Part shown: positions 1 to 11,613 of the stretch, in pieces
Layout: each line of letters begins with the position of its first letter
How positions within the stretch are numbered: the stretch's first letter is position 1
NCBI GenBank assembly: GCA_002189035.1
Contig: CM007989.1
Coordinates: 2,666,001 to 2,730,000 of the forward strand
Direction: 5' to 3'
Origin: Utricularia gibba
Taxonomy: Eukaryota > Streptophyta > Magnoliopsida > Lamiales > Lentibulariaceae
Length of the DNA stretch: 64,000 nt
Notes under the pieces: model-generated
The model's input: the letters and a program-made list of their open reading frames with translations, nothing else
What the model was told of the DNA's origin: nothing
Database searches by the model: none
Translations under genes and position numbers: made by a program

Positions 1-1387
1 GCGCCGGTTGGGTCCTTCTTCTCCACGCTCTTGATGACACCCACCGCCACCGTTTGACGCATGTCACGCACTGCGAAACGCCCCAGAGGAGGGTACTCGG
101 AGAACGTCTCCACGACCATGGGTTTGGTGGGAATCATCTTCACGAGGCCGGCGTCGCCGTTCTTCAGGAACTTGGGCTCCTTCTCCAGCTCCTTTCCAGA
201 CCGTCTGTCGATCTTGGTCAGGATCTCCGCGAACTTCACGGCAATGTGGGAGGTGTGGCAATCCAGCACGGGGGCGTATCCGTTCCCGATCTGCCCGGGG
301 TGGTTCATGATGATCACCTGGGAGGTGAAGTTGGCGGCTTCCTTGGCGGGGTCATCCTTGGAGTTGGACGCCACATACCCACGCTTCAGGTCCTTCACCG
401 CCACGTTCTTCACGTTGAAACCCACGTTGTCACCCGGCAGAGCCTCCAGCAGCGCTTCGTGGTGCATCTCCACGGACTTTACTTCAGTCGTCAACCCAGA
501 GGGACCGAAGGTGACCACCATACCCGGCTTCAGGACACCCGTCTCGACACGCCCCACAGGCACAGTGCCGATACCACCGATCTTGTACACGTCCTGAAGC
601 GGGAGCCGGAGGGGCTTATCCGAGGGCCTCTTTGGCTCGTTGATCAGATCAAGAGCCTCAAGAAGGGTCGGCCCCTTGTACCAGTCCAGGTTGTTGGACC
701 TCTCGATCATGTTGTCTCCCTCGAAACCAGAAATTGGCACGAAGGGGATCTTTTCAGGATTGTAACCGACCTTCTTCAGATAGGAGGACACCTCCTTCAC
801 AATTTCATCGTACCTGGCCTTGGAGTATTTTGGTGTCGTGGCGTCCATCTGCACAGCAAGATCAGCGCAGGGTAAGATGACTGAACAGGCAATTGAGTAA
901 AAAAAAAATCGAAAGATCTGAGGACCTTGTTGCAGCAGCAGATCATTTGCTTCACGCCAAGGGTGAACGCAAGCAGAGCATGCTCTCGGGTCTGCCCATC
1001 CTTGGAGATACCAGCTTCGAAACCACCAGTGGTGGAATCGATGATCAGCACAGCGCAGTCGGCTTGTGAGGTACCAGTAATCATATTCTTGATGAAATCA
1101 CGATGCCCAGGAGCATCAATGACGGTGCAGTAGTACTTTGTGGTCTCGAACTTCCATAGAGCAATATCGATGGTGATACCACGCTCGCGCTCAGCCTTCA
1201 GCTTGTCGAGCACCCACGCATACTTGAATGACCTCTTGTTCATCTCAGCAGCTTCTTTCTCGAACCTTTCGATCACACGCTTGTCGATACCGCCAAGCTT
1301 GTAGATCAAGTGACCGGTGGTGGTGGATTTTCCAGAGTCGACATGGCCAATGACCACGATGTTGATGTGAACCTTCTCTTTACCCAT
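1..1387 (-). CDS. eEF1A (EF-1 alpha) copy 1, 3' end cut by window
   Basis: Translation elongation factor 1-alpha, the GTPase that brings aminoacyl-tRNA to the ribosomal A site in the cytosol. Two coding exons are visible: 926-1387 (154 codons from the ATG at 1387) and 1-848, separated by a 77-bp intron (849-925). The G1 P-loop GHVDSGKS is at residues 14-21 and the G3 DAPGH at about 91-95. The G4 NKMD motif is split by the intron (NK in exon 1, MD in exon 2). Compared with copy 3, about 13 C-terminal codons and the stop lie beyond the left edge. By eye the visible coding sequence matches copy 3 base for base, with no length difference. It is transcribed divergently from copy 2. Confidence 0.95.
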
Positions 1388-1998
1388 GTCGAGTTTTCAA
1401 GCAACCCTGGTCATAAAAAAAATCATAGAAGTGTTCGGATGAGAAACAAGCATGTAAAAGTTAAATATTCGAATGCAAGCCGATCAACATAATATTCCCT
1501 ATCATCAAACAAGCAAGATATATGAAGAAACACCAGCCAGTAGACCAGGAGAAAACAAGCCACTTAAGAAAGAGTTGCTGAAATTCCAAAACCGAAACAT
1601 ATGCATAGAAACAAGAGTATGCTTCTCCATATTTGGGCAAGATCACAGAGACTGAAAAAACAAAGCTCTGTTACCAAAAAGCACGCATAAATTCACCATG
1701 ATAAAATTCAAACTACCTAATCGTAATCTACTAACATCAGCAAATACAATTCACACGAGCAATCAGAAACCAAGATCGACTAGCTGATCAAAAAAAATAC
1801 AGAGATCGACTTGACAATTACAAAAGCATACAAAGGCTGCCAGAAAGAACGTCGGAGAGGATTGCTTACGTGAACGTCAAATTCGCTGGCACAGAAAATA
1901 CTGTCCAATCGATCGACGTGCGCGTGAGCTGCCAATGGAAGCGACGTCCCTAATCGAGCGCCCTTTTATAGCAAGCAAATAGACGGCAATTAGGGTTT
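1388..1998 (-). promoter_or_regulatory. eEF1A copy 1 leader intron, first exon, TATA and telo box
   Basis: Upstream of the copy 1 ATG there is a short leader piece (1388-1406), then a leader intron. On the minus strand its acceptor is at 1407-1408 and its donor GTAAGC ends at 1869. The non-coding first exon lies above 1870. A TATA box (TATAAAAG read on the minus strand) is at about 1963-1970 and a telo box (AAACCCTAA) at about 1990-1998. A leader intron is typical of plant eEF1A genes. The exact transcription start is inferred. Confidence 0.75.
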
Positions 1999-2262
1999 CT
2001 CGCAGAGCCGTTGGATTATTTTTGATCTACGGTGCACATAATACGAGAAGGCGAGTATTTACTAATAGTAATTATTATTTCAAGATAATTGACAATAATT
2101 GAAAATTTTAAAACACAATTTAGTCAATTTTTTAAACGCTGTAAAAGTTTCTATTTAATAAAAAGTGGGCTGCAGTTTTTATCGTCGCTCTAGTTTCCAA
2201 CGAGTAGCCCACACGTTTTTGGGCTGAAACCCTAAATTTCCTTCGAGACTCTTTGTATAAAA
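1963..2262. promoter_or_regulatory. Bidirectional eEF1A promoter (copies 1 and 2)
   Basis: About 285 bp separate the minus-strand TATA of copy 1 (about 1963-1970) from the plus-strand TATA of copy 2 (2255-2262). Telo boxes lie at both ends (about 1990-1998 minus, 2227-2235 plus), and site II-like TGGGCT or its complement occurs several times between 2165 and 2226. A diverged inverted version of this whole block sits at about 8770-9070. Shared bidirectional use is inferred from the geometry. Confidence 0.7.
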
Positions 2263-9227: not shown

Positions 9228-9519
9228 TTCTGCTGAGGAGATCCGAAAGTTTGAGAATCTGGGATATGTGATGAGCGGTAGCAGACACCGGAGAATGAAT
9301 GCCATCCGTATCAGACAAGAAAACCAGGTTTACAGTGCCGAGGACAAACGAGCGTTGGCGATGTTCAACCATGAGGAGAAGGCAAAGCGCGAGCAGAAAG
9401 TAATGAGTGATTTGCAACGTCTTGTGCAGCGCCACATCGGCCAAGATGCAGGGCCTTCCGGTGACCCTTTCGGTGGACGGGCTACTGATGCAACACGTTT
9501 CTGCTTCGTGTTCCCTTGA
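9228..9519 (+). pseudogene. Truncated NKAP/MAS2-like 3' fragment
   Basis: Only the last part of the NKAP C-terminal domain is present, at about 94-95 percent nucleotide identity by eye to 6090-6350. The reading frame is open from an ATG at 9271 to a TGA at 9517-9519 (82 codons). Changes include Gln to Arg, Lys to Gln and His to Gly, and the native C-terminus is replaced by an aromatic-rich tail after a small deletion. An ATG immediately followed by TGA (9266-9271) overlaps the start. It lies directly downstream of an orphan eEF1A promoter, so a chimeric transcript is conceivable. It is most likely a duplication relic. Confidence 0.75.
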
Positions 9520-10186
9520 CATTTCGTTCCAGATGGCTTGTGTATGTTTAGCCAGGTAAAACCCCAAATGGGGAAACCTCATGGTGTTGACCTGCAAATT
9601 CACTATGCTTTGTACAGGTTACAGGATACAGAAAGAAAGTGCACCCAACTCAGATCACCCAAGCTGTGATCAATCTCAAAAGAGACAGAATTTACGCATA
9701 CACTCCTCACTCCCTCACTGCACACCGTTATAGACCAGAAAGACACTCACTCCACGAACTATCCTGAGCATAATGGGAAAAAACCGCCAGGCTAACTGCC
9801 CAGCGTTGTGGCACACCTGTCGTGTGCCTACTAAACGTGCTGATAGTTAAGCTCACGATGATCACCACTTGCATCCGGACATCTACATGATATGAAATCT
9901 GTTTTTGTTTACAAGCAACTTCACCTACCACTTATAGTTTGAAACTCCACGATTTTCAGAGTATCCCATTTGGGGGGTTTCAGACAATCTACATATAAAA
10001 GAGGGGGCATAACATAGCAAAAGTGGAGGCGTTGGATATAAGGCTACAAAAGATAACGTTACATAATATGGGCGGTAGTCTCAACGCAGCCGCGGTAGTC
10101 TCAAACAGACAACATGGATGGAAAAATGGAAACGAAAACAACCTGAGGCAAGAAGATCAAACATCAGAACTGCGAGTATGCACCAT
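9520..10186. other. Intergenic between NKAP fragment and eEF1A copy 4
   Basis: No gene is seen. Positions 9840-10186 are homologous to 6425-6845; 9535-9840 is unmatched in the window and shows no recognisable element. Confidence 0.55.
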
Positions 10187-11613
10187 TCACTTGGCGCCTT
10201 TCTTGGCGGCCGCCTTGGTCACCTTGGCGCCGGTTGGGTCCTTCTTCTCCACGCTCTTGATGACACCCACCGCCACCGTTTGACGCATGTCACGCACTGC
10301 GAAACGCCCCAGAGGAGGGTACTCGGAGAACGTCTCCACGACCATGGGTTTGGTGGGAATCATCTTCACGAGGCCGGCGTCGCCGTTCTTCAGGAACTTG
10401 GGCTCCTTCTCCAGCTCCTTTCCAGACCGTCTGTCGATCTTGGTCAGGATCTCCGCGAACTTCACGGCAATGTGGGAGGTGTGGCAATCCAGCACGGGGG
10501 CGTATCCGTTCCCGATCTGCCCGGGGTGGTTCATGATGATCACCTGGGAGGTGAAGTTGGCGGCTTCCTTGGCGGGGTCATCCTTGGAGTTGGACGCCAC
10601 ATACCCACGCTTCAGGTCCTTCACCGCCACGTTCTTCACGTTGAAACCCACGTTGTCACCCGGCAGAGCCTCCAGCAGCGCTTCGTGGTGCATCTCCACG
10701 GACTTTACTTCAGTCGTCAACCCAGAGGGACCGAAGGTGACCACCATACCCGGCTTCAGGACACCCGTCTCGACACGCCCCACAGGCACAGTGCCGATAC
10801 CACCGATCTTGTACACGTCCTGAAGCGGGAGCCGGAGGGGCTTATCCGAGGGCCTCTTTGGCTCGTTGATCAGATCAAGAGCCTCAAGAAGGGTCGGCCC
10901 CTTGTACCAGTCCAGGTTGTTGGACCTCTCGATCATGTTGTCTCCCTCGAAACCAGAAATTGGCACGAAGGGGATCTTTTCAGGATTGTAACCGACCTTC
11001 TTCAGATAGGAGGACACCTCCTTCACAATTTCATCGTACCTGGCCTTGGAGTATTTTGGTGTCGTGGCGTCCATCTGCACAGCAAGATCAGCGCAGGGTA
11101 AGATGACTGAACAGGCAATTGAGTAAAAAAAAAATCGAAAGATCTGAGGACCTTGTTGCAGCAGCAGATCATTTGCTTCACGCCAAGGGTGAACGCAAGC
11201 AGAGCATGCTCTCGGGTCTGCCCATCCTTGGAGATACCAGCTTCGAAACCACCAGTGGTGGAATCGATGATCAGCACAGCGCAGTCGGCTTGTGAGGTAC
11301 CAGTAATCATATTCTTGATGAAATCACGATGCCCAGGAGCATCAATGACGGTGCAGTAGTACTTTGTGGTCTCAAACTTCCACAAGGCAATATCAATGGT
11401 GATACCACGCTCGCGTTCAGCCTTCAGCTTGTCGAGCACCCACGCATACTTGAATGACCTCTTGTTCATCTCAGCAGCTTCTTTCTCGAACCTTTCGATC
11501 ACACGCTTGTCGATACCGCCAAGCTTGTAGATCAAGTGACCGGTGGTGGTGGACTTCCCGGAGTCGACATGGCCAATGACCACGATGTTGATGTGAACTT
11601 TCTCTTTACCCAT
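10187..11613 (-). CDS. eEF1A copy 4, intact
   Basis: Complete 449-residue eEF1A: exon 1 11152-11613, intron 11075-11151, exon 2 10187-11074. The predicted protein is the same as copy 3. By eye 10187-11373 is identical to copy 3, whereas 11374-11613 (the 5' half of exon 1) carries a cluster of silent changes, for example in codons around W-K-F and in the P-loop. The gene is therefore a mosaic: a homogenised 3' part on a diverged 5' part and an unrelated promoter. Confidence 0.97.

Follow-up and report, generated by a model that had tools for sequence, protein, structure and literature searches.

Four eEF1A copies stand in the first 11.6 kb of the window, i.e. the whole 64-kb stretch of bladderwort DNA analysed here (contig C1:2666001-2730000), three of them on the minus strand (c1, c3 and c4) and one on the plus strand (c2). 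Their silent sites and introns are far closer to one another than the flanks that were duplicated along with them, which is the pattern of concerted evolution, and very probably the copies have been homogenised by recurrent gene conversion between loci (interlocus or ectopic conversion) with DNA as the template, as judged from alignment of the four with each other and with c5, the sole further eEF1A (contig C505) found in the 100.09-Mb, 516-contig assembly that was searched. The copies are as follows, c1 being defined from open reading frames and alignment and the others from alignment:

1387-1 and ~40 bp past the left edge of the window, minus strand: c1, with exon 1 at 1387-926, the intron at 925-849 and exon 2 from 848
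2749-4172, plus strand: c2, with exon 1 at 2749-3210, the intron at 3211-3287 and exon 2 at 3288-4172
8272-6846, minus strand: c3, with exon 1 at 8272-7811, the intron at 7810-7734 and exon 2 at 7733-6846
11613-10187, minus strand: c4, with exon 1 at 11613-11152, the intron at 11151-11075 and exon 2 at 11074-10187
11374-11613, minus strand: the apparently unconverted 5' remnant of c4, with 10 sites of its own in CDS nt 15-240

The protein encoded by c3 matches the EF-1_alpha model TIGR00483 over its whole length with 708.7 bits (cut-off 540.1), and PDB eEF1A chains match the encoded protein at E 1e-232. The 449-aa frame is intact in c3 and c4, as is the frame of c1, whose stop codon lies at contig C1:2665961, ~40 bp beyond the window. 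An intact frame is not common to all copies, since exon 2 of c2 carries a 2-bp deletion near 3883-3887 and a 1-bp deletion near 4120-4124, and the shifted frame runs to a stop at 4068-4070. These deletions look like residual long-read or assembly errors, because no substitution is found beside them, and a fresh pseudogene is the other possibility; two indels with no substitution inside the tract also suggest that base accuracy is imperfect here.

Between c1 and c3 there is a single difference in 1350 coding nucleotides, namely the stop codon (TAA/TGA), and none in the 77 intron positions; the 77-bp intron, including its run of ten T, is the same in all four copies. From CDS nt 241 onward c1, c3 and c4 are the same at every silent site, the stop codon of c1 excepted, and c2 agrees with c3 except at its two small deletions and over its final codons and stop, which are its own (GGAGCGAAGTAA versus GGCGCCAAGTGA in c3). 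The 10 differences between c4 and c3 all fall in CDS nt 15-240, with zero beyond that up to the stop, and six of the ten private sites of c4 carry the state of c5. At third positions all nine c3/c4 differences lie within the first 80 of the 450 codons (P 1.2e-7). The copies are thus mosaics with sharp internal breakpoints: at nt 240 in c4, at -166 in the leader shared by c2 and c3, and at the end of c2. The sequence-only reading was largely right, and alignment of the four copies bears out part of it: the identical coding sequence and intron that it had ascribed to copies 1 to 3, down to the 10-base run, hold for c1 and c3 and are interrupted in c2 by the deletions, while the departure of copy 2 from copy 3 that it had placed only in the last codons is real and is joined by those same two deletions. 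Its view that all four genes are homogenised from the start codon fails for c4, and three things had escaped it: that c4 is unconverted over its first 240 nt, that deletions break the frame of c2, and that the flanks of c3 are swapped, as described below.

Outside the coding block the copies differ by 15-30% or are unrelated, which is as much divergence of leaders, promoters and 3' flanks as had been claimed from the sequence, or more. The flanking features are:

8273-9209, minus strand: 5' flank of c3, homologous to the 5' flank of c2 (1822-2748) and ending beside the NKAP fragment
6360-6845, minus strand: 3' flank of c3, homologous to that of c4, more weakly to that of c5, and not to that of c2
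2583-2748, plus strand: leader stretch of c2 (166 bp), identical to the c3 leader 8273-8438
8273-8438, minus strand: leader stretch of c3 (166 bp), identical to the c2 leader 2583-2748
1388-2748 (1.36 kb), no strand: intergenic region between c1 and c2, which stand head to head
4813-6359, plus strand: NKAP-like gene (Nkap_C) in the interval from c2 to c3
9226-9490, plus strand: truncated NKAP copy between c3 and c4, duplicated along with the c3/c4 3' region

In the 5' flank of c2 and c3, counted outside the identical stretch, 152 of 767 positions are mismatched (20%); in the 3' flank of c3 and c4 the mismatches amount to ~25% beyond +90, and the remaining pairs of flanks are either weakly related to each other or impossible to align. 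Divergence is therefore not uniform over coding sequence, intron and flanks, the outcome that would have spoken against homogenisation, as the flanks are far more diverged. The truncated NKAP copy is an internal control that has diverged, differing from 6081-6335 at 14 of 255 sites and at five of 30 fourfold sites. At the c2/c3 flank rate, zero differences over the intron, 222 fourfold sites and 166 leader bases have log10 P = -44.6, and the zero differences between c3 and c4 beyond nt 240 have log10 P -34 at the 3' flank rate (~25%) and -21 at the fourfold rate of the NKAP fragment (5/30). With log10 P between -21 and -45, chance is ruled out as the source of the silent and intron identity.

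The limits of the identical tracts differ from copy to copy. In c1, identity starts 6 bp ahead of the ATG and ends within the stop codon, so the limit at the ATG noticed in the sequence for this copy stands; its 5' flank is weakly related (~70% alike) and its 3' flank unrelated. Identity between c2 and c3 oversteps the ATG by 166 bp in the leader before falling to 80%, and c3 and c4 show five differences in the first 85 bp after the stop, followed by ~75% identity. The apparently unconverted remnants, i.e. the first 240 nt of c4, the last codons of c2 and the stop codon of c1, each lie at an edge with an unrelated flank, and for the 5' flank beside the remnant of c4 no relatives are detectable. 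Limits placed by the start and stop codons, which had been read as a general property of the cluster, are hence not what the alignments give: since the tracts overrun these codons where the flanks are homologous and stop where they are not, the limits are most simply read as following sequence homology, which would also be their cause. The interpretation as repeated interlocus conversion is well supported, although the argument from limits at the reading-frame ends on which it had partly been built does not hold.

The two flanks of c3 are of different types, the 5' flank being c2-type (z 167) and the 3' flank c4-type (z 66) and also related to c5 (z 10), with the 3' flank of c2 unrelated. Since the types differ, at least one exchange or duplication breakpoint in the coding sequence or at its edge would have re-paired them; it may have been a crossover between copies in inverted orientation, with inversion of the NKAP segment as a consequence, or else a long conversion tract. 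The c3 5' flank also holds a relic of the c1-facing promoter. In the c1/c2 intergenic region, TATAAA-type boxes are found at ~1970 facing c1 and at ~2256 facing c2, and the leaders of the two genes are ~70% alike in inverted orientation, from which this region is taken to be an inverted duplicate promoter region. At 9209-9226 the c3 5' flank meets the truncated NKAP copy through ~16 bp of filler, which marks a duplication breakpoint. In the NKAP-like gene itself, a frame at 4810-5850 runs into a frame at 5604-6359 (Nkap_C) with a one-base shift and no obvious intron; the shift, between 5604 and 5850, is either real or an assembly error.

We propose that three eEF1A genes on one strand and an inverted fourth would swap sequence by ectopic conversion. 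Strong constraint on the protein, together with conversion itself, would keep the coding block and its short intron similar, so that the block would go on lending itself well to recombination. In the older duplicates, promoters, leader introns and 3' UTRs would meanwhile have drifted until pairing was lost, with the result that tracts would stop where the homologous block stops; small unconverted remnants would stay there, and overrun past the ATG or the stop would occur solely between copies with still-homologous flanks. The template would have been DNA rather than cDNA because the intron lies inside the identical tract, an argument already made from the sequence and which stands. On this evidence, the loss of flank homology can explain why conversion is confined to coding sequence, without a signal at the ends of the reading frame.

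An assembly artefact, in which the copies inside the 1.4-kb repeat were all given a single consensus during error correction or polishing of long reads, is improbable. Small indels without substitutions, such as the two in c2, are typical of uncorrected long-read consensus, and the NKAP frame is likewise shifted by one base; but the ten sites specific to c4, six of them with the state of c5, persist inside the repeat, as do the last codons and deletions of c2 and the stop codon of c1, no N occurs anywhere in the 64-kb window, and the repeat is short relative to long reads that reach the unique flanks. The collapse of copies by the assembler, which had been named as something that would refute the interpretation, is unlikely because copy-specific variants survive. 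When the assembly was searched with window 11700-14700 and 1600-4700 as queries, no second haplotype of the locus turned up; the matches were confined to the cluster, c5 and paralogues of ribosomal-protein genes.

Recent tandem duplication of whole units with no later conversion would account for the identical coding sequence and intron, but it is refuted by the flanks of those same units, which differ by 15-30% or are unalignable, and by the co-duplicated NKAP fragment with its divergence at fourfold sites, and we give it practically no weight. Just as little can be given to selection by itself, acting on the protein and on codon use: eEF1A is strongly conserved and abundantly expressed, and the GC3 is 0.74, but c5 encodes almost the same protein and is so diverged at silent sites and in the intron that selection cannot explain the identity within the cluster, and the leader stretch of c2 and c3 is identical as well. 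Conversion templated by a cDNA or retrogene, or conversion guided by recognition of the start and stop codons, would suit c1, whose tract ends near both; it is very improbable, as the intron lies within the identical tract and tracts cross the ATG by 166 bp (c2/c3) and the stop by ~85 bp (c3/c4).

For the comparison with eEF1A elsewhere in the genome, which the sequence-only reading had proposed, c5 is the obvious control. c5 differs from c3 at 186 coding sites in all and at five amino acids; 52% of fourfold sites differ (identity 0.48), and so do 60 of 92 intron columns. A ribosomal protein gene (Pfam Ribosomal_L11) at window 13068-13568 has a paralogue ~20 kb from c5, and since the fourfold identity of this pair (0.45) is near that of c3 and c5, c5 is probably a homoeologue left by whole-genome duplication. 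Near the same ribosomal protein gene, a 94-bp tandem duplicate with 96% identity lies at 13757-13944. Fourfold identity between the cluster and c5 is higher at the two ends of the coding sequence together (47/65, 0.72) than in nt 228-1164 (58/152, 0.38), an excess reached in 0 of 300 shuffles. Exchange with c5 long ago, or constraint on codons towards the two ends, could lie behind it.

The cluster and c5 also differ in base composition. Beyond CDS nt 240, a boundary taken from c4 and not from GC, 84 third positions have G/C in the cluster against 36 the reverse (P 1.4e-5), whereas before it, where c4 would have escaped conversion, the corresponding third-position G/C counts of cluster and c5 are 7 and 10. 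In nt 901-1200 fourfold GC is 0.91-0.92 in the cluster and 0.55-0.60 in c5. That GC-biased conversion drives the shared core of the cluster is a tentative lead, and on balance a doubtful one, the changes being unpolarised; if it is true and the changes are derived in the cluster, GC-biased conversion would be recorded inside one coding sequence with an unconverted homoeologue as control, and the contrast with c5 offers a testable case. To go by a title cited in PMC4358910, GC-biased conversion was proposed earlier for Utricularia. For rice and sorghum, raised GC was reported not to be accounted for by conversion between homoeologues (PMC3924838).

Conversion that stays within the coding sequence of conserved, inverted paralogues is a known process, and the cluster is a clear, ordinary new case of it; we found no direct case of eEF1A conversion in plants in the literature searched. 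In Arabidopsis, EF-1alpha A1-A3 form a cluster, At1g07920/07930/07940. A single sequence tag fits the three genes with nearly the same quality (PMC4169229). In both plants, linked eEF1A copies are hard to distinguish. The conserved, linked, inverted paralogues Amy-p/Amy-d and the Hsp70 pairs of Drosophila, for which conversion is inferred, resemble the bladderwort genes in these respects and, for amylase, in concerted evolution limited to the coding sequence while the flanks evolve independently (PMC3924832); the Drosophila cases draw on several species and, for Hsp70, on shared polymorphism, whereas the eEF1A cluster comes from one genome and has four copies in mixed orientation with an intron inside the tract. 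Ectopic conversion was also suggested for Leishmania beta-tubulin, whose coding regions evolve in concert while non-coding regions are distinctive for each locus (PMC1533823), but those loci are dispersed and belong to a protist, whereas here there is one linked cluster in a plant. Rice and sorghum share with the cluster the long-lasting homogenisation of plant paralogues (PMC3924838), which there takes place between homoeologous chromosome ends, while the probable homoeologue c5 stays unhomogenised. The cluster offers a textbook-style case within one genome, with four copies, a diverged co-duplicated neighbour and an unhomogenised probable homoeologue, and eEF1A, a common phylogenetic marker and qPCR reference, should not be handled as several independent loci in this plant.

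Some minor features were also observed. A split exostosin frame at 52215-53490 was considered as an indel and rejected; its translation suggests a short intron, and for this reason it was left out of the count of assembly errors. A matrixin-like gene at 56035-57203 has its PG-binding and peptidase M10 parts in different frames with stops between them, owing to an intron or to a pseudogene. Elsewhere in the assembly, the mitochondrial COX1 (contig C515:183547-185854) contains PPSLLLLCCSALVEVG with adjacent cysteines (LLLLCCSALV), a contiguous pair which we take to be the reported Utricularia signature at this place, and its first exon continues into an intron-encoded open frame.
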